DNA of 64,000 bases from Carboxylicivirga sp. M1479. GTDB taxonomy: Bacteria > Bacteroidota > Bacteroidia > Bacteroidales > Marinilabiliaceae. The DNA lies in contig NZ_VKDE01000018.1 in NCBI RefSeq assembly GCF_007097485.1, positions 1 through 64,000 on the forward strand, in the 5' to 3' direction. Position 1 is the stretch's first letter. Every line of letters begins with the position of its first letter. Both the position numbers and the translations under genes were made by a program. The notes under the pieces are model-generated. The model saw only the letters and a program-made list of their open reading frames with translations, was not told where the DNA came from and ran no database searches. Of this stretch, positions 13,744 to 25,911 are shown piece by piece.

Positions 13744-13772
13744 TTTGGCTTAAAATAATTGAACTACTTTTG
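13744..13772 (+). promoter_or_regulatory. Candidate promoter TTTG-N17-TACTTTTG
   Basis: A -33 TTTG at 13744-13747 and a -7 TACTTTTG at 13765-13772 are separated by 17 nt, close to the spacing known for Bacteroidota promoters. The start of transcription would be near 13779, giving a leader of about 100 nt before the ATG at 13881 that includes the whole conserved leader block. Confidence 0.55.
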
Positions 13773-13809
13773 CTGCTATATAAATGCCTTATGAAACGAG
13801 TCATACGAG

Positions 13810-13888
13810 TTGCTTCACACACAGGAGTAAGATTAATTTTGGCGAGTTCCATATGGCAATTGAAAGCAAATTATAAACACATGAAAAG
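13810..13888 (+). promoter_or_regulatory. Conserved 5' leader, copy A
   Basis: This 79-nt block aligns without gaps to 62162-62240 with about 15 mismatches (roughly 80 percent identity). In both copies it contains ACACACAGGAGT, then GGCGAGTT, TGGCAA and AAATTATAA, and ends across the ATG of the following gene. Mismatches do not favour third codon positions in the two frames I tested, so conservation looks like RNA- or DNA-level constraint. It is probably a 5' untranslated regulatory element or translation-enhancing leader. Confidence 0.6.
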
Positions 13889-14213
13889 TATAAATAGAAG
13901 AACAGAAAAACCATCGGCAGAGGCGAAAGCACTTTCTCTTTATTTGATGGCTTTTAAATCGACCGATTCGGCGTGTAAAGAGCAGTCAAAACGCATGAAA
14001 CGTTTGTGGGACATCGTGCTTGAAAACGATGCTCGCATGAAAGACTATGTGAAAGAGGTGCAGAAGTTGCTAGCGGTGCATGGTGGTTATGAAAAAGTTG
14101 TGGAAAAAACAGTTAAGCATTTTGTTGAAAAAACAGGCGAATGGAAATTGAAGGGCGACGACAAGTTTTGTGTCGATGCTCAGCGTGTTGCAGATGACTT
14201 AAAGAAGAAGTAA
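13881..14213 (+). CDS. Small charged helical protein of unknown function
   Basis: About 110 residues, rich in Lys and Glu and almost surely all-helical, with no signal peptide or membrane segment. I do not recognise the family. An in-frame start at 13770 would add 37 residues, but that extension translates the conserved leader block and overlaps the predicted promoter, so the ATG at 13881 is preferred. The gene stands alone, ends in a strong terminator, and shares its leader with the VOC gene at 62233, which suggests common post-transcriptional control. Confidence 0.7.
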   Translation: MKSINRRTEKPSAEAKALSLYLMAFKSTDSACKEQSKRMKRLWDIVLENDARMKDYVKEVQKLLAVHGGYEKVVEKTVKHFVEKTGEWKLKGDDKFCVDAQRVADDLKKK

Positions 14214-14221
14214 ATAGCACA

Positions 14222-14252
14222 GGTACTGATGAATTATCAGTACCTTTTTTTT
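14222..14252 (+). terminator. Rho-independent terminator
   Basis: A perfect 9-bp stem GGTACTGAT / ATCAGTACC with a 5-nt loop is followed by eight T residues. It starts 9 nt after the stop of the small gene. Confidence 0.92.
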
Positions 14253-14365: not shown

Positions 14366-15574
14366 CTACATGCCCGCCTTTAGAAAAATTACAAACAAAG
14401 TTATTGACACAATTAAATTCAATACAAAAGCGATATAGGCTATTCTGAGGTAGATGTATTTTTTATTCAGTACTTTCCCCAGAAAAAACAAATCGCGAGT
14501 AAGGCTTTTGTATAGGTAGCTTTTGTCCTTCAGCACTTCTTCCATACCCCATTCAAAGTCATCTTGACTCATACGATGGAAATTGCCAAAAAAAGCAAGA
14601 TTACCCTTTTTGTTTTTAACATCTTCCCGTGTCATTATTCCATGGGTAGTGCGTGGTATGGTTGACACCATGGCCAAAATAATAGTAATAACGCACAAGA
14701 ATAGTAGAACGGATGCTGGGATAAATAGGCCTTGATAGGCAGCAAAATTTGGGAATAGGGTAGAGAGCACAATTGATATAATAATAGCATTAACGCTAAT
14801 AATAGTATTGGCTTTATTATCGGCAATTTGACTTAGGCTGATGTGGTTGGGCAGAGTTACCCTAAATAAGGTTTCTATGCCTTTATCTGGTTTTTCAGTT
14901 GTGCTTTTGCTTTTCTGATTTTTCTCTTTGTCTTTCTTGTCTTTTTTCAAGCTGTCAATAGCATCCTCCAGTTTTACGATGTCGCGCTTAGCTAGTTCTT
15001 CCAGTCTTTTAATATTCTTTAGCTTTCCCTTAGTAAAGTTCTTGAGGGCATATTCGGTGTAATATTGATGTTGATTTAAGAACTCGATACACTCTTGAAC
15101 CCATTGCTGAGGACTTAGCTCGCGCATTGCTTTTTGCTCATAATACAAATTAGTAAAAGCTTGCTTGAGGTATTTATTACTCTGTAAATGCGAAAGATCG
15201 GCATCAATAATTATCTGCTCAAGCAAATCACTAGGCTGATGATTGTGTTGAGTGGCTAATATTAAACGTTTAACGGTTTCTAATTTTGCTTTTTCATAAC
15301 CCTCAGACTTTAGTAATTCTTCGGCATAACAGGCGCTTTCTGTTTCGTGTTCTTTTCTGTTGCAATGAAAACATGAATCGTGGAAGATGGCTGCCAGCTG
15401 TATTTGTTCCAGTTCGTCATCACCTACTTCGGGCGTTGCATTGGCAATTTCGCTTGCATTGATCAGCACATTATTAATATGTTCCCAGTTATGGTAAAAC
15501 AAATCACTTTGCTTATTCTTATCAATTTTGTCCTTTACAATGTTTAAACAGGTGTTTACTATATCCATCATCAT
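14366..15574 (-). CDS. HD-domain phosphohydrolase fused to a Pycsar-effector-like (PycTM/DUF5706) membrane domain
   Basis: In 402 residues two parts are visible. Residues 1-200 form an HD metal-dependent phosphohydrolase: YHNWEH (H28, H32), FHD (H65, D66) and IDAD (D124/D126). After a Lys/Glu-rich linker (about 205-235) comes a membrane domain with LSQIADNKANTIISVN, then hydrophobic helices near 265-285, 290-315 and 375-398. The AD-x-KAN-x-VN signature is that of the family named after PycTM, the membrane effector of pyrimidine cyclic-nucleotide (Pycsar) phage defence. No cyclase gene is nearby. As last gene of the Ppk1 operon (16 nt after the phosphoesterase) it may hydrolyse or sense a nucleotide at the inner membrane. 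Confidence 0.85.
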   Translation of the reverse strand: MMMDIVNTCLNIVKDKIDKNKQSDLFYHNWEHINNVLINASEIANATPEVGDDELEQIQLAAIFHDSCFHCNRKEHETESACYAEELLKSEGYEKAKLETVKRLILATQHNHQPSDLLEQIIIDADLSHLQSNKYLKQAFTNLYYEQKAMRELSPQQWVQECIEFLNQHQYYTEYALKNFTKGKLKNIKRLEELAKRDIVKLEDAIDSLKKDKKDKEKNQKSKSTTEKPDKGIETLFRVTLPNHISLSQIADNKANTIISVNAIIISIVLSTLFPNFAAYQGLFIPASVLLFLCVITIILAMVSTIPRTTHGIMTREDVKNKKGNLAFFGNFHRMSQDDFEWGMEEVLKDKSYLYKSLTRDLFFLGKVLNKKYIYLRIAYIAFVLNLIVSITLFVIFLKAGM

Positions 15575-15590
15575 GATCTACTGTTATATT

Positions 15591-18500
15591 CTAAAATAAA
15601 AAACTGGTTCCTACTACAAAGAGTTCGTCGTTTTCCGATATGGAAAAAGTGCCTTTCAGCATAAAAGCATCAAGTATGCTAATAAATGTGCCAAAACCGT
15701 ATGAGTGATGCCACTTGTCATCTATGCCATCGGCCTGCCACATGCGTATAAGGTCAAAATGCCCTAACAAACCCCAGTCAAACGGAGCAATGTAATTTGG
15801 CACCCGTAAAAGGCTCATTCTTACATCAACATTCTGATAAAAGAAAGCTTTTGATGAAAAGCGATTACGCCTAACCCCTCTAAAGTTTTTTATGCCATCA
15901 ACAAAATTAGACTGGTAAAATGCATATGAACCAAAGTTATTGACATAGCCCGAACGCAAGGCCAGGGTCGTCTGTTTGGATGAGATATTAAGAGGCTGAT
16001 AAAAGCTTAATGCTGTATTTAAATGCAAATATTCAACATGATTGTTGTTGATGCTGTGATTCCAAAGTAAGCGAGTATAAAATTTAATACCTCTATATGG
16101 ATGAATGACATTGCTTAGATTTTCATACTTGTATTCCACTGCAGGAGCCAGGTAATTCTGACTTTGTGTTTGCCAACTATCTCCCACAAAGGTAGGGAGT
16201 TCTTCAAAGTTAATGTGCAGGTATAAAAGGCCAAATCGTAATTGTCTTGTTTGATCGTCAGACCTCAATTTAAGGTTGAGGTTAAGATGATAATCATTCA
16301 TTTTTACATTGTATTCATCACTGTCAAAATCAATGTCCGTATAGTCGGTGTCACCGTAGTATTGGTATACATCGGGTAGGTTTATGCGTACATTACCTTC
16401 CAGATTAAAATTGCCCACTAGCTTGGTGTAGTCAAAGTTATAATAGAGGTTTAGTCCATTGATGTTAAAGGCGTAATTGGCCAGTGCCTTGTGGTAATAT
16501 TTATATGGTTCTTTCTTAAAACCGTGCTTAGTATATTTAAAACCTGGTCCGATATAAAAGCCATCATCGGCATTATAGCCCAAGGAAGCCAAGGGCAAGA
16601 GCTTGTCGTATTTAAAGGCTTTGCGGTCGTAGTCATAGGCTTCACTATCCTTAACCGTTTTGAGTTTTGTGTCTGCGCCACCAATAACTTTGTTCTTACC
16701 TTTCGAATCGTACACCAAGGTGTGTTTTTTTAAGCCTTTAACCACTGAGTTATCTTCAATTTTATCTTCTTTAGGACCAGCAATTATTCTTACCAAAACA
16801 CTTTTATCGCAAACGCCCTTTAGCTGATATTCGTCTTCTCCATCTAAGCCATAGAGTTGTACTTCTTGTGTTTCATCTGCATTAAATACACGGTGGTAAT
16901 AGCGTTTCTTTTTTACTTTTTTACCCTTTTTACGTGGGTAAATATTTAGTTCTAACGAAGCACCTTCATGGCGAATTATCTCAAAATAATCGTCACCCAA
17001 AGTACCAGGTATGCTGACTGTTTTGGCAAGAATATCATAGTATTGTTCTGCTAGTTGCGGCAATTGATCACGCCTTGCCTTTAGTGTCGATATTATTTTA
17101 TCCCCATTAACAGCGAATGCCTCAGGCGGTAATGCATGTATTGATTTTTCGATGCTTTCATCACTCAAATTTGCTTTTAACTCTTCGGCATTTCGTAACC
17201 AATCACTTTTTGATGCTTCGATTAAAAAGGCACGATCAAAATAACGAGCGTTAAAGTTTAATCCTGCAATGTCTCGCACTTCGGAGTCAAAAGACTGGAA
17301 TTTTCTCATTAACCATTTACGGTTAACAATGGATGGTAATACGCCGTCAAATGTAAAATAAGCCTGGTCACGATCGCGAGGGATGGCTCTGTAAATTACT
17401 TTATCATTGGTTTTAAAGGTAGCCCACCTCCACTGGTCGTCGTGCCTATCCCAGTCGCCAATTGTCATGTCAAATAGGCGTGCCTTTAAATTGTAGTTCT
17501 TATCCACCACATGATCGTATTCGGCTTGCATTTTTCGAATGGCATCGGTGTAGCTTCTTACCTTTTCAGAATTACCAAACGATGGAGCATCAGACATGTC
17601 GCCATCAGGTCGTTCTTCAAACAAGCAAAACATACCCCCGAATTCATCCAGGTAATCGCCCAGTATCGAATCTTTGGGTACATAAACCAAGCGCGGATTA
17701 CTGTGGTAAACACCTGCAGCCTTGGATAGCTCAGGAATACTAACTGCCCCATAAGGATGAGAACCTGCCATGCCATCGTAAATCACATCTTGAGCAATAG
17801 TACCACGTAATTCTTTCTCAACCAGAAAACGGGTGTTCTTCTTAACGCCACGCAAGGTGTATTCTTTGCCATCGGCTCCCTCCATTCGCAAGGAAATGGT
17901 CTGTTGACCGCCACCTTTTTTTATGGGATTCAGGCCACCTTTTTCGTAATGAATATCTAAATAGGGAACTTTTAGAGGGGTGGTCCACAGGTCGCGGTTG
18001 AGGTCTCCCTGAAAAAAACGTTTGAATGCTGATGCTGCCAGAGTAGAGTCAGGAACAACCTGAGCCCATTGGTTTTTATAGGATTTTTTGCTGACTGGAG
18101 CATTCATCTTTGTGACAACTGGCTTCTTTTTAAAGAGCATCTTTCTAAAGGCCATTAAAGCCGAGTTATCACTAGGGTTGATGGTGTAAAATTCAAGCCA
18201 TAGTTCACCATTTTTGTAATATAAAAGGCGAGAGTAGCCTCGTTGTTCCGATCCAAATCCGAGGTGGATGTTGTTTTTGATGTAGGATGTTTTGCTGCCG
18301 CTACCACTTATAATGTGATGTATGTTTTCCTTATGATGATACTGAAGGTTGTGTTCATGGCCTGCTGTATAAACAATATCTTCATACTCTTTGAGCGCCT
18401 CACTAATTTGAAAGACCATATCGTTATAAACAGGGTGTGCCAGGTCTTGGTTATGGCCTATGAACTTGCGATAACCTGGGTAAATACTGCCGATAATGGG

Positions 18501-19277
18501 CAGTGGGAGGTAAGCCGACTCATTGATATGGGTCAATGGAAACAGATGATCTTTAAATTGAAAATACCCACCATGCGTACCATTACTGTACAAAGGGTGG
18601 TGGCCTGCAACAATAATGTGTTGGTGCCGGTACTTTTTAAGCAAATCTTTGAACAGTACCATCAGTTCAGCCTCATTTCGGCATTGACAATCATCCTTTA
18701 AACCACTTGATTTTTCAAAGGGGTGGAGCCACCATTGGGTATCGATAATAATCATTACCAAGCCTGGACTTAGTTTTACAACTTCAGGACCAGGGCAACC
18801 ATTGCTAGGCAGAAAAACTTCTTTTCTGTCGAGGTAGTTTTCAATGTATTTTTCTTGCCTTTTAACGGCTTTCAAACCTCCCTTGTCGTATTTTTTCCAA
18901 TCGTGGTTACCCGTGAGGAAAACCACATCTCCTTCAAAATCTTTGACAATGTCAAGTTGTGCATTTAGCCTTATCTCATCCTCCGCTCGGTGTTCACTTT
19001 TCTTTTTACGTAGTCCTTTGGGGTATATGTTATCACCTAAAAAGACAACACCTGTGTTTTTTTTATCACTAGCCTGTAGCTGAAGATGCAACTTGCTTAA
19101 TACAGGCATGGAGTTGGTTGTGTCATCTCCCGCATCGCCAATTAAATAAAGAGAGTACAATAATTCGGTATTGGTAGGTAAATCTGGTGTCTGCTCAGTA
19201 CTCTGGGCGTAGGCCTGGCCCAATACCAGAGGTAAAATGCTTAAAAGTGATAATAAACCGATCTTTATTAAGCTCAT
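15591..19277 (-). CDS. Calcineurin-like metallophosphoesterase with C-terminal Omp85-type barrel
   Basis: A 1228-residue exported protein (signal peptide 1-25). Residues about 42-370 carry the metallophosphoesterase motifs GDAGD, GDNIYPKG, GNHDWKK, AGHHPLYSNG and AGHEHN. A middle region (about 440-720) has IGDWDRHDDQWRW near 610 and PRDRDQAYF, which recall the DRH catalytic loop and metal-binding site of HipA/FAM20/CotH-like kinases; this is only a motif-level impression. The last 350 residues look like a surface-antigen/Omp85 beta-barrel ending in a terminal Phe. The phosphoesterase would thus be anchored at the outer membrane. The ATG overlaps the previous stop by 4 nt. Confidence 0.85.
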   Translation of the reverse strand: MSLIKIGLLSLLSILPLVLGQAYAQSTEQTPDLPTNTELLYSLYLIGDAGDDTTNSMPVLSKLHLQLQASDKKNTGVVFLGDNIYPKGLRKKKSEHRAEDEIRLNAQLDIVKDFEGDVVFLTGNHDWKKYDKGGLKAVKRQEKYIENYLDRKEVFLPSNGCPGPEVVKLSPGLVMIIIDTQWWLHPFEKSSGLKDDCQCRNEAELMVLFKDLLKKYRHQHIIVAGHHPLYSNGTHGGYFQFKDHLFPLTHINESAYLPLPIIGSIYPGYRKFIGHNQDLAHPVYNDMVFQISEALKEYEDIVYTAGHEHNLQYHHKENIHHIISGSGSKTSYIKNNIHLGFGSEQRGYSRLLYYKNGELWLEFYTINPSDNSALMAFRKMLFKKKPVVTKMNAPVSKKSYKNQWAQVVPDSTLAASAFKRFFQGDLNRDLWTTPLKVPYLDIHYEKGGLNPIKKGGGQQTISLRMEGADGKEYTLRGVKKNTRFLVEKELRGTIAQDVIYDGMAGSHPYGAVSIPELSKAAGVYHSNPRLVYVPKDSILGDYLDEFGGMFCLFEERPDGDMSDAPSFGNSEKVRSYTDAIRKMQAEYDHVVDKNYNLKARLFDMTIGDWDRHDDQWRWATFKTNDKVIYRAIPRDRDQAYFTFDGVLPSIVNRKWLMRKFQSFDSEVRDIAGLNFNARYFDRAFLIEASKSDWLRNAEELKANLSDESIEKSIHALPPEAFAVNGDKIISTLKARRDQLPQLAEQYYDILAKTVSIPGTLGDDYFEIIRHEGASLELNIYPRKKGKKVKKKRYYHRVFNADETQEVQLYGLDGEDEYQLKGVCDKSVLVRIIAGPKEDKIEDNSVVKGLKKHTLVYDSKGKNKVIGGADTKLKTVKDSEAYDYDRKAFKYDKLLPLASLGYNADDGFYIGPGFKYTKHGFKKEPYKYYHKALANYAFNINGLNLYYNFDYTKLVGNFNLEGNVRINLPDVYQYYGDTDYTDIDFDSDEYNVKMNDYHLNLNLKLRSDDQTRQLRFGLLYLHINFEELPTFVGDSWQTQSQNYLAPAVEYKYENLSNVIHPYRGIKFYTRLLWNHSINNNHVEYLHLNTALSFYQPLNISSKQTTLALRSGYVNNFGSYAFYQSNFVDGIKNFRGVRRNRFSSKAFFYQNVDVRMSLLRVPNYIAPFDWGLLGHFDLIRMWQADGIDDKWHHSYGFGTFISILDAFMLKGTFSISENDELFVVGTSFLF

Positions 19278-20062
19278 TTAATAAATTTTAGCAAGGTTGG
19301 GTACTTGATTTTCTTCTCATTGCTGATGAATAAGTCTCCGTTTGGTGCGAATGTTATGCCTTCGGGCTGATTAAAAATATCTTTAAATAGAGGTCTTTTT
19401 TGCAGTATTTCTCCTGCTGAGGATAAGATAAGCAACATTTTAGCCGTTGAACTTAATAGATAAATATTACCATCGGGATGAATGGCAATGGCCGAGGGGG
19501 AGAATAGTTTAGAGACCTTGTCTTTTGGAATTTTAAAAGCTGGATGTTTGGCATAGCTCATTGATCGTAAACTGAACTCATAAATTCTGATATAATCGTT
19601 TTTGTCTTTATCACCATGTGTTTTACATGCTACCAGCAATCGCTTATTCTCTTTATCCATGCATAAGCCTTCAAAATCAAAACCCTTACTATTCTTAAAA
19701 TCATATGTTTTCGTCTTATCCTTTTTGCGCTTAATCAAGGTAATATCGCCATTGCTTTTAAGTACATAGATATCATTTTTATTAGCTGTTACGCCCTCAT
19801 AATCGCCTTTTTTTCCAAAACGATAGGTATCGGTTATTTGTCCGTTGTTGCTATTCAAATAGTATAGTATGCCTTCTTCATCCTGCACAGCTAATATGAT
19901 TGAATCGCTATAGTAGTGCAGGCCTGAGATCTCATTTAGCTCACTATCCAAACGAAATCCCTCTGTGGGAACGTGGAGCTTATAGGTATTCGCCTGATTA
20001 GTTTCGCAGGCATTTAAACCCAGTAACATTGCCAATATACCGTATGATAATAATCGCACCAT
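19274..20062 (-). CDS. SdiA-regulated family beta-propeller lipoprotein
   Basis: The 262-residue protein has a lipoprotein signal (GLNAC near residue 19) and then propeller-like repeats: LNEISGLHYYSDSIILAVQDEEG, GDYEGVTANKNDIYVLKSNG, KGFDFEGLCMD and NQPEGITFAPNGDLFISNE. These phrases are typical of the SdiA-regulated/esterase-like phytase superfamily of propellers, whose members may bind phosphate-rich ligands. It lies 6 nt after ppk1 and overlaps the phosphoesterase start, so it is firmly part of this operon. A role in sensing or handling phosphorylated ligands in the envelope is an inference from context. Confidence 0.82.
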   Translation of the reverse strand: MVRLLSYGILAMLLGLNACETNQANTYKLHVPTEGFRLDSELNEISGLHYYSDSIILAVQDEEGILYYLNSNNGQITDTYRFGKKGDYEGVTANKNDIYVLKSNGDITLIKRKKDKTKTYDFKNSKGFDFEGLCMDKENKRLLVACKTHGDKDKNDYIRIYEFSLRSMSYAKHPAFKIPKDKVSKLFSPSAIAIHPDGNIYLLSSTAKMLLILSSAGEILQKRPLFKDIFNQPEGITFAPNGDLFISNEKKIKYPTLLKFIK

Positions 20063-20068
20063 ATTTTA

Positions 20069-22090
20069 TTACTTTGAAAATGCTGTTTGCTGCATTAATT
20101 CTTTTACAAATATAAACATCATCTCTTGCGATGATTTACTGTTGTTACCTTTCAGGTATTGATTGTTATTAACATTATCATTTATTCTGCCCTTTTTGCT
20201 GTCGGCCAATTGTGTTTTTATTTGTTTTAGCAGAAACGATTGAATGTTTGAGTCCCATATTGGAAAACACACCTCAATGCGGCCCGATAAGTTACGTGTC
20301 ATCCAATCGGCCGAAGCAAGATATACTTTGGGGTTTCCGCCATTGTTAAAATGGTATATTCGTGTATGTTCTAAATACTGGTCAACCACACTAACAATGG
20401 TAATATTTTGTTGTTGTTTTTCTGTGAGAGGCGTGTAACAGCAAATACCCCTAACCACCAGTTTGATTTTGACACCAGCATCTGCCGTTTCTCGTAAATG
20501 ATCGATCATTGATAGGTCTTCGAGGCTGTTAACTTTTATGTGTACAAGGCCTTCTACACCTTGCTTTGCCAAACGTATTTCCTTGTCTAGCAAATCAGCT
20601 AAACTTTGACGTAGGGTAAATGGAGCAACCAATAAGTGATGGAATTTGGGATTACTGGTTTCTTTTTTCATATACCTGAACACCTCATTGAGCTCCGTTG
20701 TGAAACGCATATCGGCTGTTAGTACTCCATGGTCAGCATATATTTTAGCCGTTTTCTCATTCAGGTTTCCAGTTCCCAGGTAGGCATAAACAGCACTGCC
20801 TGTATTTTCCTTTCGATGTATGGTAAATGTTTTGGCGTGTACTTTAAGTTTGTTAAGGCCAAACTTAACTTTGGCACCTGCCTCCTTTAATCGTTCGCCC
20901 CAATAAATATTTGATACCTCGTCAAAGCGTGCCTGAACCTCAGCCAGTACAAATACATGCTTACCTTTTTGCGCCGCCAGTTCCAGTGCTTTACAAATGT
21001 CCGATGAATCGTTGACTCGGTAGAGGGTAATGTTAATTTCGGTCACATCGGGATCTTCAGCTGCCATCATCAAAAAGCGCGACACATAGTTAAAGTCCTG
21101 GTAAGGGTAACTTAGAAATACATCTTGTTGCTGTATTTCATCAAACCAATTATTTGACTCATCCAAGCGAGTGCAAGGTACTTGTGCTTGATGTGAAAAA
21201 TAAAGGTGCATTTTGTCCTTAAACTCAGGAAAAGTGAAAAAGTCGTAATAACTGTGGTATTTGCCACCAGGAATCAAACTTGTCATGTCCAGGTTCATCT
21301 GCTTCCTCAGCTTGTTGATGTATTTAAAAGGAATATCTTCGTTAAATAACAGGCGGCTGGGAAGTCCTGTCTCTCGCTTTTTCAAACTCTTTTTAATTTT
21401 ATGCACAATGTCAGCATCCTGCTCATCATCAATGTATAATTCCGCATCGCGCGATATTTTAACCGCATATGCCTTTGCATTAACGCCCACAAAATGTTTG
21501 AGGTTATACCGAAAGATATCGTCCAATTGAATTATCCGTGTTCCTTTTTTATCATTATGAAGTGTAATAAAACGCCCCCATTTTTCATAGTCCATCTCCA
21601 ATAAATATGTTTTTTGCCTATCTAAAATATAGAGGTAAATCGCCTGGTTCTTAAGTTCAACATCTGGTTCATTAGTGATATCAATCAGCGAGAAATCTTC
21701 TTTTATGTGTTGTTGAAAATATTGTTCGGCTAACTGTTGATCTTGATCATTGAGTTTATCAAATAAGAAGTGAATGCCTTCATGTGACATGGCGGGCAAT
21801 AGCAAATGATAAAAGAGCTCGCCTAGCTTTTCTTGTTGCTTACTAACGATGCTATTAATTTCCTGAAGTATAAAGGAGGGGCGATAAGCGTACTTGTTTT
21901 TCTTATCGCCTTTATATTTTTGAGAGAAGCGGAGACTAGCCACTCGCACTTTATAAAATTCTTCGAGGTTGGATGAGTAGATGGCAATAAATTTGAGGCG
22001 TTCCAAAAGAGGGATATCAGGGTTTTCAACTTCCTGTAGTATACGCTCATTAAAAGCTAACCAACTGATGTCGCGATCAATGTATTTCAT
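20069..22090 (-). CDS. ppk1: Polyphosphate kinase 1
   Basis: At 673 residues it has the normal length of Ppk1, which reversibly polymerises the gamma-phosphate of ATP into polyphosphate. The N-terminal signature YIDRDISWLAFNERILQE is diagnostic. The middle head domain has LFNEDIPFKYINKLR. The two phospholipase-D-like catalytic domains carry the HAKTF motif (VHAKTFTIHR, the expected phospho-His), GTGNLNEKTAKIYADHG, and later EHTRIYHF. It is gene two of the operon, 34 nt after the GAF-domain gene. Confidence 0.97.
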   Translation of the reverse strand: MKYIDRDISWLAFNERILQEVENPDIPLLERLKFIAIYSSNLEEFYKVRVASLRFSQKYKGDKKNKYAYRPSFILQEINSIVSKQQEKLGELFYHLLLPAMSHEGIHFLFDKLNDQDQQLAEQYFQQHIKEDFSLIDITNEPDVELKNQAIYLYILDRQKTYLLEMDYEKWGRFITLHNDKKGTRIIQLDDIFRYNLKHFVGVNAKAYAVKISRDAELYIDDEQDADIVHKIKKSLKKRETGLPSRLLFNEDIPFKYINKLRKQMNLDMTSLIPGGKYHSYYDFFTFPEFKDKMHLYFSHQAQVPCTRLDESNNWFDEIQQQDVFLSYPYQDFNYVSRFLMMAAEDPDVTEINITLYRVNDSSDICKALELAAQKGKHVFVLAEVQARFDEVSNIYWGERLKEAGAKVKFGLNKLKVHAKTFTIHRKENTGSAVYAYLGTGNLNEKTAKIYADHGVLTADMRFTTELNEVFRYMKKETSNPKFHHLLVAPFTLRQSLADLLDKEIRLAKQGVEGLVHIKVNSLEDLSMIDHLRETADAGVKIKLVVRGICCYTPLTEKQQQNITIVSVVDQYLEHTRIYHFNNGGNPKVYLASADWMTRNLSGRIEVCFPIWDSNIQSFLLKQIKTQLADSKKGRINDNVNNNQYLKGNNSKSSQEMMFIFVKELMQQTAFSK

Positions 22091-22124
22091 AGATTATAAA
22101 GATTATAACTCTTGCCTCAATTTT

Positions 22125-24497
22125 TTAAATAATGTCTTCCAGGGCATCTGTATTGTTGAAGTTAATCTCGACCCTTAGCGCTCTTAAGCCCGAGGCTCCT
22201 TTCAGATCCTCCAACTCTAAGTCTTCAACCGTTTCATGAAGATAGTTCTTCGAAATAAGATAATCAATGTATCGGCTATACTCTGTTATTTCGTTTGAGT
22301 GCGAATAGATGATGGCAATTTTACCCACCTGAGTTAAGCGCTCGTTGCTTCCTTTAATCAAGGCTTTATCTATGCGTTTTTTAGTTATCTCGTAACGTAT
22401 ATTGTACGCTCCTGCAACATCAAATTTCTTTTCATCCAGCCTAAAGGCGATGCTCAAGGGCTTGGTATGTACCAATATAAGTTGTGTAATATCTAGCTTA
22501 GTTGTAAGTGATGCTTGTAAGTTATGTACCGCACGTGCCACCTTAACCTTTAGTAGAAGTTGCCATAAACGCATGTTGTTAAGGTAGAGTTCACTGTATT
22601 TAAGCCCCCTAACCATTGATTGACCAATGTAAGCATTGTACTCTATGCCATCAGTTCGGTATTTTTCAAAGTAATGAGGGAATACTTTTTGAGCTTTCTT
22701 TTGTTCATCATCAATGATTTCTGATACCTTGTCGTTTATCAAAGTCAGGCTTTCTTCAAATTGCTTTCGCCTTTTGTATAAAACGTTTAACTCAGTGTCC
22801 AGACTGTTAAAATATTGCTTCACAGGCTCGTTGGCGCCTTTGTAAGTATCTTTTAAAAGAATAAGAATAGGGTTTATTTCTTTAGTAAGGAAATCGATGA
22901 TACTTACTTCATCACCAGCTTTGAGTCCGGCTTTTACAGTGTCAAGATGTTGTTTAATTTTGTAGCTTAAATTATTAAGCAATGGAATGCCTGTTTCCTT
23001 TACTTCATTTTTTACTATGATTAAAGCAAGTTCTAGTTGCTCAGATAGGTCTGCCTGAATGGCTTCGTTGCGAATTACCGACGAAGCCCTAATGTCTGAA
23101 GCACCATAAAGGGGCACCACATCCTTAAATAAAATAGGTTCATTACTTACTGCATCACCGTGTGGTTGATTGAGTTGTTGAGCCGCAATTTCTCTGAAGC
23201 GCCACTCAACGGTAGGATGAATAGCGGTATACTCTTTTTGGATAACAGCCCTTACCTTGTCGCTCCAATCATCTCTTGATCGTTTTAGAGCCAAGGCAAA
23301 TATTGGAAATAACTCATACAAGAGTTTTATTTGCAAGGTATTTAATTCATTGGCTTTGTAGCAAGCGAATTCTAACATGCCCACCACTTCATCGTCGAGC
23401 AATAATGGTACAACGGCATGACTACGAATGCCTTTTTTTAGAAAAGCATCCACAACAGAGTTTCTCTCTATTGACTCAAGGTCGCCTGTTAATATTATTT
23501 GCTTTTCTCTATATGCCCTCTCATATACCGAACCTTCGTATTCCGAACAGCTCAATTCACTTTGTGGAATAATGGTGTTCCAGATGTAGTTCTGGTTAAG
23601 TGTCGATTCAAAATCCTGATTGGCTGCAAAACCGAATTCAACATTGGGTTTCTCCATTAATGCCCTTACCCGCTCCAGTATTTTATTGAATCCATTCTTG
23701 GTTAAAAAGGTTTCTTTTTCCAACAAATCCGACTTCAGCTCTGAGATAACATAGCTTCTGGTTACATCAAACTGGTTGAACTTTAGAAGTCCAGTAAATT
23801 CGTATTTGCTGAGGGGTATTTTGCTATTCCAATAGTCTAAATCATTCTCTTTATCCAGTAAATCTTTAATGTCTTCAGATGAAAAATCAGGAACATCACC
23901 CAGTCGCTTTACCCGTAAGAAGCGTGTGTCAATTTTAACATTAAAGAATTTAACCGATTGATTATCTTGATTTGTGACCTTAAAGGTAAATGGCATTTGT
24001 TGAGGTAAATCCATGCCATATTCCTTTTGCATGATGATCAGGAATGATTGATACAGCATCGATATGAGCATTTTATCCTTTTTAATATCCTTACTGATGT
24101 CCAAAGTTTTATTATCTCCCATAAATACTTCCTGGTATAAAGGAGTCGAATAAATGGGCTCAAAACGAAAAGGCATATGCACTGCGGCATATTCCATATC
24201 GCTTGCCATTGGGTTAATCATAAAGGATATCATTTGCTCCAGCAAATCATTGTGAGGTTCTAAGTCTGATAAGTTCTCAATAACAGATTTAAATATTGGA
24301 GTCTTATCCACTTTAAGCAATACCTCTTTGGCCATACTTTTCATCGGATGAGACTTTTTATTGCTTATTTGTTTTATCTCTTCAATTAAATACTCAAAGC
24401 TGAGCGAAGTTTTAAACGGTATTTTATTTAAATGGCAATTGATTGTATTGCGTTCTTGATTCATCATATCCCTAGGTTTACAAGGCAAGTTAGACAT
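22125..24497 (-). CDS. Large GAF-domain cytoplasmic protein, first gene of the Ppk1 operon
   Basis: The 790-residue soluble protein has a GAF-like domain about residues 270-400, with SHAVVPLLLDDEVVGMLEFAC as its core and an ELSCSEYEGSVYERAYREKQII segment before it. The flanks are mostly helical and unfamiliar to me. There is no kinase, cyclase or DNA-binding domain. GAF domains bind small ligands such as cyclic nucleotides, and the gene heads the operon 34 nt before ppk1, so it could sense a nucleotide and adjust Ppk1 or the downstream membrane proteins. The ATG at 24497 gives the longest form; ATGs at 24467 and 24464 are equally possible. Confidence 0.72.
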   Translation of the reverse strand: MSNLPCKPRDMMNQERNTINCHLNKIPFKTSLSFEYLIEEIKQISNKKSHPMKSMAKEVLLKVDKTPIFKSVIENLSDLEPHNDLLEQMISFMINPMASDMEYAAVHMPFRFEPIYSTPLYQEVFMGDNKTLDISKDIKKDKMLISMLYQSFLIIMQKEYGMDLPQQMPFTFKVTNQDNQSVKFFNVKIDTRFLRVKRLGDVPDFSSEDIKDLLDKENDLDYWNSKIPLSKYEFTGLLKFNQFDVTRSYVISELKSDLLEKETFLTKNGFNKILERVRALMEKPNVEFGFAANQDFESTLNQNYIWNTIIPQSELSCSEYEGSVYERAYREKQIILTGDLESIERNSVVDAFLKKGIRSHAVVPLLLDDEVVGMLEFACYKANELNTLQIKLLYELFPIFALALKRSRDDWSDKVRAVIQKEYTAIHPTVEWRFREIAAQQLNQPHGDAVSNEPILFKDVVPLYGASDIRASSVIRNEAIQADLSEQLELALIIVKNEVKETGIPLLNNLSYKIKQHLDTVKAGLKAGDEVSIIDFLTKEINPILILLKDTYKGANEPVKQYFNSLDTELNVLYKRRKQFEESLTLINDKVSEIIDDEQKKAQKVFPHYFEKYRTDGIEYNAYIGQSMVRGLKYSELYLNNMRLWQLLLKVKVARAVHNLQASLTTKLDITQLILVHTKPLSIAFRLDEKKFDVAGAYNIRYEITKKRIDKALIKGSNERLTQVGKIAIIYSHSNEITEYSRYIDYLISKNYLHETVEDLELEDLKGASGLRALRVEINFNNTDALEDII

Positions 24498-25140: not shown

Positions 25141-25911
25141 TTATAAAGGGATATTGATATCGATTTCTTTACGAAGTTTGTTTTTATCCAACAAGCGTTT
25201 TTTGGTAATGAGGTACATCAGTCCACTAAACTTTCTTGCGCCGTAAGGGCACACATCAATACAGCGTGTGCAGGCAATACATGTTTTCTTACAAGTTTTC
25301 TTAGGGTTGCTTTTGTCAATAGCGCCAACAGGACATGCCTGAACACATCTGCCGCAAAAGTTACAATTTGAATTGGTTTTTGCTACCAAGGGAACATGTC
25401 CCTGTGGCCGTAGGTTTTTGTTGTCAGATTGTTGTTGATGGCCTCCATTCATAATACGAGAATGCATCACGCTTTTCCTCCCAAATTGTTCAGCTTTATC
25501 CAAATCATTCTGATCTGGTCGCCCTTGGCCTAACTCGGGAAACAAGGAGTGGCGCGCAACAAAAGCACCACTGCTTATGGGTATAAAACCAGCTTCAACA
25601 CTTATGTTGCTTAGTTCATTCAGTGTATCTTCGTAATGGCAGTTACCATACGCACAACTTATTATTGCGCGAGCTCCATTACCATTAATTTGTGAAATAA
25701 ACTTGGTAGCAAGGGCTGGAACGCGACCCGAGAATGCTGGAACGCCGATAACGGCAATGTCCGTACTTGATAGTTCAATGCTTTTGTTTAAGCCTTGGGT
25801 AATATCATAAGTAATAAAGTCCTTATCAATACCACTGGCTATTGCTTCAACTATTTTTTTTGTTGAACGGGCAGGACTAAAAAAGATGGCGATTACTTTT
25901 CTATTAAGCAT
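25141..25911 (-). CDS. EFR1-type flavodoxin/ferredoxin fusion protein
   Basis: In 256 residues the N-terminal two thirds form a flavodoxin-like domain that starts VIAIFFSPARSTKKIVEAIA, where the FMN-phosphate loop is expected. The C-terminal third has two 4Fe-4S clusters: CNFCGRCVQACPVGAI and CIACTRCIDVCPYGAR. This order is that of the EFR1 family of electron-transfer proteins, which are small cytoplasmic redox carriers of anaerobes. It is monocistronic, with a candidate -7 box TATTTTTG at 25973-25980 on the same strand. Confidence 0.9.
   Translation of the reverse strand: MLNRKVIAIFFSPARSTKKIVEAIASGIDKDFITYDITQGLNKSIELSSTDIAVIGVPAFSGRVPALATKFISQINGNGARAIISCAYGNCHYEDTLNELSNISVEAGFIPISSGAFVARHSLFPELGQGRPDQNDLDKAEQFGRKSVMHSRIMNGGHQQQSDNKNLRPQGHVPLVAKTNSNCNFCGRCVQACPVGAIDKSNPKKTCKKTCIACTRCIDVCPYGARKFSGLMYLITKKRLLDKNKLRKEIDINIPL

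Follow-up and report, generated by a model that had tools for sequence, protein, structure and literature searches.

An HD-PycTM protein and an outer-membrane phosphatase with a predicted kinase domain form the core of a conserved Bacteroidota locus

Pycsar systems are sporadic pairs of defence genes in which a pyrimidine-type class III cyclase (PycC) is encoded next to a PycTM or PycTIR effector, with cCMP or cUMP serving as the signal in abortive defence against phages. The PycTM domain is accordingly classed as a defence effector; our comparison with Pycsar drew on PMC11224242. Here we describe a PycTM domain in another setting, a five-gene operon of Carboxylicivirga sp. M1479 that lies at positions 14366-24497 of the window, by which we mean the whole 64,000-nucleotide stretch that was analysed (contig NZ_VKDE01000018.1, positions 1-64,000). 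The operon encodes a GAF protein, polyphosphate kinase 1 (PPK1), an SdiA-regulated-type beta-propeller, a large outer-membrane phosphoesterase and an HD-PycTM protein. It resembles Pycsar in its PycTM domain and in the PycC-type class III cyclase that is found in the same locus of other lineages. It differs in that the window operon has no recognised cyclase, its PycTM domain is fused to an HD domain, and the partner is an outer-membrane protein with phosphatase and predicted kinase domains. In contrast to the sporadic Pycsar pair, this locus is conserved across families.

The individual parts also have described relatives. Omp85 proteins such as BamA, TamA and PlpD show similarity to the predicted C-terminal barrel of the outer-membrane protein, in which a phosphatase and a predicted kinase replace POTRA or patatin domains; the text of an Omp85 survey (PMC4104836) contains neither the word phosphatase nor phosphoesterase. 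CtkA/HipA-like, PI4KII, CotH and Fam20C kinases resemble the middle of this protein in predicted fold and in their DRH/DxD catalytic residues, whereas the predicted kinase here shares one chain with a phosphatase and an outer-membrane barrel and is predicted to lie outside the cytoplasm. Class III cyclase-HD fusions carry the same HD family (31-32% identical for the pair from the same genome), but they are single proteins without PycTM and stand outside this locus. The PPK1 of the operon is full-length and scores above the equivalog cut-off; unlike PPK1 in general, it is a second, divergent copy placed inside an operon, although it forms no separate clade. A literature search, with few subscription papers within reach, returned no account of the gene set or of a phosphatase-kinase-barrel protein; the first-pass annotation likewise knew of no account of the set as one system. 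What appears to be new, judging in part from structural models, is the occurrence of Pycsar-type parts in a conserved envelope setting together with a new predicted kinase architecture.

A conserved gene neighbourhood

We surveyed the families of the operon in 296 sampled Bacteroidota genomes from 140 genera. Relatives of HD-PycTM occurred in 131 genomes, the outer-membrane phosphoesterase family in 115, PPK1 in 269 and the GAF protein family in 60 (one of them a fragment, G128), the last spanning 38 of the 140 genera. The linkage count took in HD-PycTM rows from 120 of the 131 genomes and excluded the GAF fragment, and a relative of HD-PycTM could match by HD or PycTM alone. Among the rows entered, HD-PycTM and phosphoesterase relatives lay no more than 10 kb apart in 84 of the 96 genomes having both, while by a rough estimate chance proximity at this distance in several-megabase genomes would yield about one case or fewer in the sample. 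Linkage of this kind across families rules out a chance neighbourhood and supports a real, conserved gene association across Bacteroidota; the neighbourhood proposed in the first-pass annotation is thus not confined to close relatives. All 59 genomes with a full-length GAF protein also carried an HD-PycTM relative and a phosphoesterase relative, and the GAF gene was linked to the former in 41 of the 59 and to the latter in 42. For PPK1 we included rows from 56 of the 269 genomes; the resulting lower bounds are 21 genomes with linkage to HD-PycTM and 20 with linkage to the phosphoesterase.

To describe the composition of the locus, we used 80 loci picked with the outer-membrane phosphoesterase profile alone, the best 80 of at least 585, many of them on short contigs. 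They include loci from Larkinella, Pontibacter, Hymenobacter, Pedobacter, Tenacibaculum, Algoriphagus, Chitinophaga, Ekhidna, Balneola and Rhodothermales. PycTM was present in 57 and HD in 53 of the 80. For the 50 loci longer than 22 kb the counts were PycTM 45, HD 42, propeller 24, PPK1 18, GAF 15, class III cyclase 15, histidine phosphatase 9 and PAP2 5. The core of the locus is therefore the HD-PycTM protein with the outer-membrane protein, PPK1 (18/50) and GAF (15/50) being optional, and the idea of five genes as one fixed set had to be abandoned.

A second set of 109 loci includes GAF-centred regions and 40 regions picked for linkage, which inflates its GAF and PycTM counts; we removed rows whose protein was shorter than 780 amino acids, whose flank fell below 5.5 kb or which duplicated another row. 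All five families came together in L042, L108, L109, L110, L078/L111 (the outer-membrane protein of L111 lacking the phosphatase part), two Dyadobacter loci and three Chitinophaga loci, and under a stricter 8-kb rule the set was complete in 8 of the 109 loci. In Dyadobacter fermentans (L206) all five genes share one direction. Conservation of the set across genera therefore stands insofar as it recurs in Dyadobacter and Chitinophaga, but order and strand vary between lineages while the company of genes is kept. A common GAF-centred form, seen in many regions, consists of the GAF gene, HD-PycTM on the opposite strand, the phosphoesterase and a second SdiA-like propeller. The GAF gene was solitary in 18 of 59 GAF-centred regions. 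These 18 orphan regions were chosen for the absence of the outer-membrane phosphoesterase (MPE), HD-PycTM, PPK and SDI and hence are a fair control for cyclase, histidine phosphatase and PAP2 only, which numbered 1, 0 and 1 (weak), respectively. A 350-amino-acid protein recurs as a neighbour in 11 loci (family f9, L074:14474-15526); it had no Pfam match at E <= 0.001, and by eye carries a kinase-like PIDFDQQC motif.

In the window, open reading frame (ORF) coordinates bear out the layout first described, with all five genes on the minus strand and successive gaps of 34, 6, -4 and 16 nt; overlapping or touching genes were seen again in other lineages. The domain calls also held, with HD, PycTM, SdiA-regulated, PPK1 and GAF recovered by Pfam and the calcineurin-type domain by a family profile. 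Judged from gene spacing, the five genes are likely one transcript. None of the nine terminator-like sites of our scan falls in the gaps between operon genes, and such sites were at chance level (9 versus 7.9 expected), as were promoter-like sites (33 versus 36.3 expected), two of which lie directly upstream of PPK1 at 22129-22093. On the plus strand at 14221-14245, ORF 13770-14213 is followed by an 11-pair stem with T7 after it, 120 nt beyond the point where the HD-PycTM gene ends; this stem is likely the terminator of the convergent gene. The upstream neighbour of the operon, at 25141-25911 on the same strand and 643 nt before the GAF gene, has a flavodoxin-like product that carries two 4Fe-4S motifs.

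Architecture of the outer-membrane protein

The outer-membrane protein (15591..19277, minus strand; 1228 amino acids) starts with a signal-peptide-like hydrophobic N-terminus, and we newly recognise it as a putative tripartite protein with a purple-acid-phosphatase-like domain, a predicted kinase fold and an Omp85-like barrel. A profile of 26 relatives matched, among PDB sequences, tartrate-resistant purple acid phosphatase (TRAP5, 1.2e-11) and BamA (4.5e-8). The TRAP5 match and the metal-site motifs place the purple-acid-phosphatase-like (calcineurin-type) domain at about residues 36-385 (18123..19172, minus strand). These motifs are invariant or nearly so across the 26 relatives, and among 134 long relatives, in which some genomes are counted twice, GDxG was found in 122, GNHD in 125 and GHEH in 82. 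A putative Omp85/BamA-like barrel, at about residues 967-1228 (15594..16379, minus strand), is suggested by the BamA profile match and by two matches under their cut-offs, NF047779 of NCBIfam (9.5e-14) and the sole Pfam match to the whole protein, Omp85 (PF01103, 0.0023, 17.9 bits against a cut-off of 24). Scans with Pfam and NCBIfam gave no POTRA match in this protein.

No family in Pfam or NCBIfam matched the stretch between phosphatase and barrel. Its motif DWDRHDDQW...PRDRD, which varies little among family members, led us to suspect an atypical kinase. An AlphaFold2 model of residues 395-880 (16638..18095, minus strand; pLDDT 92.9, pTM 0.91) comprises a predicted atypical kinase fold followed by a beta-rich part, and its best PDB matches in Foldseek were CtkA, PI4KII, CotH kinase and Golgi casein kinase, at probability 1.00. 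In the numbering of the modelled stretch, K86, E160, D216, R217, H218, D241 and D243 are invariant in a 62-sequence alignment, and by analogy the invariant Lys, Glu, DRH Asp and DxD residues would be the catalytic residues of the predicted kinase. It has Gln at the position where PI3K-like kinases carry Asn. The pattern D-x-DRH-x-x-QW is present in 133 of the 134 long relatives and a strict second kinase pattern in 91. Relatives with kinase and barrel but no phosphatase exist, as do relatives with the phosphatase alone, so that the pieces are modular.

HD-PycTM, cyclases and accessory proteins

HD-PycTM (14366..15574, minus strand) is a predicted inner-membrane protein of 402 amino acids with three hydrophobic segments, recognised from its ORF and by Pfam and PADLOC. 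Its HD domain, residues 30-126 (15197..15487, minus strand; PF01966, 8.5e-6), belongs to a family in which the metal ligands H28, H65-D66 and D124 are retained. The PycTM domain, residues 282-384 (14423..14731, minus strand), scored 98.4 bits against PF18967 (cut-off 27.2, E 3.8e-28) and 7.5e-17 against the PADLOC PycTM model, and is the only PycTM above the cut-off in the window genome. Searched against the PDB, the protein's profile matched small HD hydrolases (4.3e-8) and type III-D Cas10 (1.8e-4); cGMP phosphodiesterases were not significant (0.07-0.09). HD and PycTM are separate adjacent genes beside PPK1 and a cyclase in L192, L201 and L204. In L098-L102 the PycTM gene lacks HD and is separated from the phosphoesterase by a gene for a cyclase-TPR protein.

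In other lineages the locus contains class III cyclases. All 10 that were tested matched PF00211 (the L102 protein among them), and all 8 tested with PADLOC matched PycC models, the best matches ranging from 1e-27 to about 4e-5. Across the 109 loci, 25 of 31 cyclase genes directly adjoin a locus gene. The window genome has five PF00211 matches, and two of the matched proteins are class III cyclases with a C-terminal HD domain of the HD-PycTM family: one of 468 amino acids (G000:C60:29427-30833, L236:628-2034; 32% identity to the HD of HD-PycTM over 194 residues) and one of 604 (G000:C120:34865-36679, L237:266-2080; 31% over 162 residues). A third such fusion was found in another genome (L240:1067-2275). 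YitT membrane proteins with DUF2179 (L238:1686-3146, L239:953-2410) likewise carry a fused domain of this HD family, which also stands at the C-terminus of long TPR proteins (L241:2599-5241, L242:887-3466). The first-pass suggestion of a nucleotide signal thus gains from the PycC-type cyclases and the HD-cyclase fusions.

The GAF protein (22125..24497, minus strand; 790 amino acids) combines an N-terminal domain of unknown kind, a GAF domain at residues 315-404 (23286..23555, minus strand; PF13185, GAF_2, 5.7e-8, above the cut-off) and a strongly conserved C-terminal part of 360 residues (about 430-790). D468 and D616 are invariant in 30 relatives. A model built from a 13-sequence alignment (pLDDT 79.6, pTM 0.55) gave as its best Foldseek match 6fht, a phytochrome-regulated adenylate cyclase (3.1e-7), followed by DosP and human soluble guanylate cyclase (8e-5); phytochromes and other GAF proteins dominate the list, in which hits carry no aligned ranges. 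Soluble guanylate cyclase is not known to have a GAF domain, which suggests that its match lies in a different region of the model. Taken in sequence, DIRxSS, TDG and FDVxGAYN are similar to the pair of metal-site motifs and then the Asn/Arg motif that class III cyclases carry. The C-terminal part may be a divergent nucleotide-cyclase-like domain, and that the GAF protein is a cyclase is a possibility to which we give somewhat less than even weight. A cyclase assignment by sequence was set aside, as Pfam, hhalign and a PDB profile search gave it no support. The model had no match at E <= 0.001 in a viral structure library, nor did a peptide-pattern search of the genome contigs with the GAF protein return a match. 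In one genome group an NA37 nucleoid-associated protein is encoded directly upstream of the GAF gene (family f10, L068:4529-5587, 10 loci), and in five loci a second calcineurin phosphoesterase of cytoplasmic type adjoins it (family f23, L062:4965-5921; Metallophos_2 under the cut-off).

GAF and cyclase genes were found in 15 and 24 of the 80 loci (one cyclase label, that of L187, is weak and could reflect TPR alone) and never in the same locus. The same held for the 109 loci, with GAF in 46 and cyclase in 27 (Fisher p 2.9e-8). Because an independent-pairs test offered no more than one informative pair, descent accounts for this exclusion as well as replacement does. It is also not strict, since G249 and G271 have a locus cyclase and a GAF gene elsewhere, and in L034 a GAF gene lies near an off-locus cyclase.

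PPK1 (20069..22090, minus strand; 673 amino acids) has all four PPK1 domains in Pfam and scored 616.9 bits against TIGR03705 (cut-off 465.85). The second PPK1 of the genome lies on another contig (G000:C24:11796-13775). A dedicated locus clade was rejected: on a quick tree of 58 PPK1 proteins, the 38 rows labelled as in the locus required 7 changes against 16.9 when shuffled, meaning that they are clustered but do not form a single clade. Long branches on this tree lead to the window PPK1 and to two further rows. Several regions have a gene for a histidine phosphatase (PF00300, checked for one member) between those for HD-PycTM and PPK1; PPK1 works through phosphohistidine, so this phosphatase may act on it. 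The propeller (19274..20062, minus strand; 262 amino acids) is SdiA-regulated/phytase-like (PF06977, 1.4e-13; PF13449, 1.3e-8) and has a lipobox-like N-terminus, LNAC; the lipobox pattern was present in 24 of 53 SDI relatives and 22 of 29 SDI2 relatives.

Possible functions of the locus

The locus probably encodes a previously undescribed circuit, for signalling or for phosphate, that spans the cell envelope, and we tentatively favour, at somewhat under even odds, an envelope circuit that is conserved in Bacteroidota and has a Pycsar-type signalling pair as its basis. Such a circuit probably acts as a homeostatic second-messenger relay rather than in abortive defence. From the observed parts and their wide linkage we infer every signal, direction and substrate of the relay. 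A cytoplasmic sensor, the GAF protein here and a class III cyclase in other lineages, would make or control a cyclic mononucleotide. The HD domain of HD-PycTM would hydrolyse or sense this nucleotide and so set the state of the PycTM membrane part, which would be coupled, directly or through phosphate status, to the outer-membrane enzyme. There the phosphatase domain would remove phosphate from an envelope substrate and the kinase domain would add it, with help from the propeller, while PPK1, and a histidine phosphatase in other lineages, would tie the circuit to phosphate or polyphosphate. A more specific version, a phospho-signalling system that spans the envelope throughout the phylum, seems to us unlikely. 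In it the GAF protein would be a new, highly divergent nucleotide cyclase, HD-PycTM a self-limiting membrane device gated by cyclic nucleotide, and the outer-membrane protein a new class of kinase/phosphatase pair that adds phosphate to envelope molecules and takes it off again, perhaps fed by polyphosphate from the operon's own PPK1 instead of ATP.

Several observations weigh against the relay. None of the five window proteins matches PF00211 (Pfam) or PycC (PADLOC), and most of the long loci lack PPK1 and lack GAF. The GAF protein gave no cyclase match at sequence level: there was no PF00211 match by Pfam in its 30 relatives, hhalign assigned a 0.6% probability to the match with cyclases, no better than unrelated controls, and the PDB profile search returned GAF-type and other chains but no cyclase. 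Some lineages have PycTM without HD, and the fusions to YitT and TPR proteins indicate that the partner of this HD family is not always a cyclase. The likeness to kinases is moderate, with a CtkA TM-score of 0.52 by target and 0.33 by query at an rmsd of 7.9; CtkA is likewise the best PDB sequence for the family profile (E = 0.018), with the DRH motif inside the aligned stretch. Little ATP is available outside the cytoplasm, which bears on the phosphate donor of the predicted kinase.

The main rival, to which we give roughly one chance in four, is a phosphate scavenging and storage island in which the outer-membrane phosphatase and the phytase-like propeller free phosphate from organic phosphorus, PPK1 stores it as polyphosphate and HD-PycTM serves as a regulator or transporter. 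Several kinds of phosphatase recur in the locus (PAP2, PF01569; histidine phosphatase, PF00300), the propeller matches the phytase-like PF13449, and 18 of the 50 long loci have PPK1. Yet storage leaves PycTM, the cyclases (15/50) and the kinase domain unexplained, most loci lack the storing enzyme, and a phosphate-starvation table for F. johnsoniae (PMC8115612, seen in part; the table is a selection, with the gene unmapped to a locus tag) names no Omp85-type phosphatase. The outer-membrane protein could instead be a biogenesis factor that assembles or modifies envelope components, with lipid or glycan as the target of its phosphatase and kinase and with the nucleotide proteins as mere regulators. 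The BamA-related barrel and the PAP2 lipid phosphatase family, present in 14 of the 109 loci, fit this account; with no POTRA match by Pfam or NCBIfam, and no occurrence of the words phosphatase or kinase in the text of a paper on the Bacteroidota BAM (PMC12611786), we consider it improbable.

Similarly improbable is true Pycsar anti-phage defence, in which a cyclic nucleotide that rises upon infection would cause PycTM to disrupt the inner membrane and so kill the cell, with the remaining genes as accessories. PycTM exceeds the Pfam cut-off and matches PADLOC, and other lineages have PycC-type cyclases in the locus; as the window operon has no PF00211 or PycC match, we do not file it as Pycsar in spite of its PycTM domain. 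The gene company is conserved across many families, the window genome has a single PycTM above the cut-off, and the HD domain fused to it would eliminate the signal. Among the clustered neighbours, as far as we identified them, there were no recurring defence genes. The enrichment near defence genes raised in the first-pass annotation did not appear either: among nine proteins flanking the operon in the window, a hybrid sensor kinase alone had PADLOC matches, which makes defence less likely. Finally, the genes might stay close without a common function, as the varying order and strand and the coming and going of PPK1 and GAF could suggest; because linkage survives rearrangement in many families and short overlaps recur, we regard such a loose neighbourhood as very improbable.

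If the envelope relay is correct, an outer-membrane phosphatase and kinase in one protein would represent a novel type of envelope enzyme, raising the question of its phosphate donor outside the cytoplasm. PycTM, filed as a phage-defence effector, would also belong to a housekeeping-like conserved locus of Bacteroidota, and automatic Pycsar calls in this phylum would mislead.

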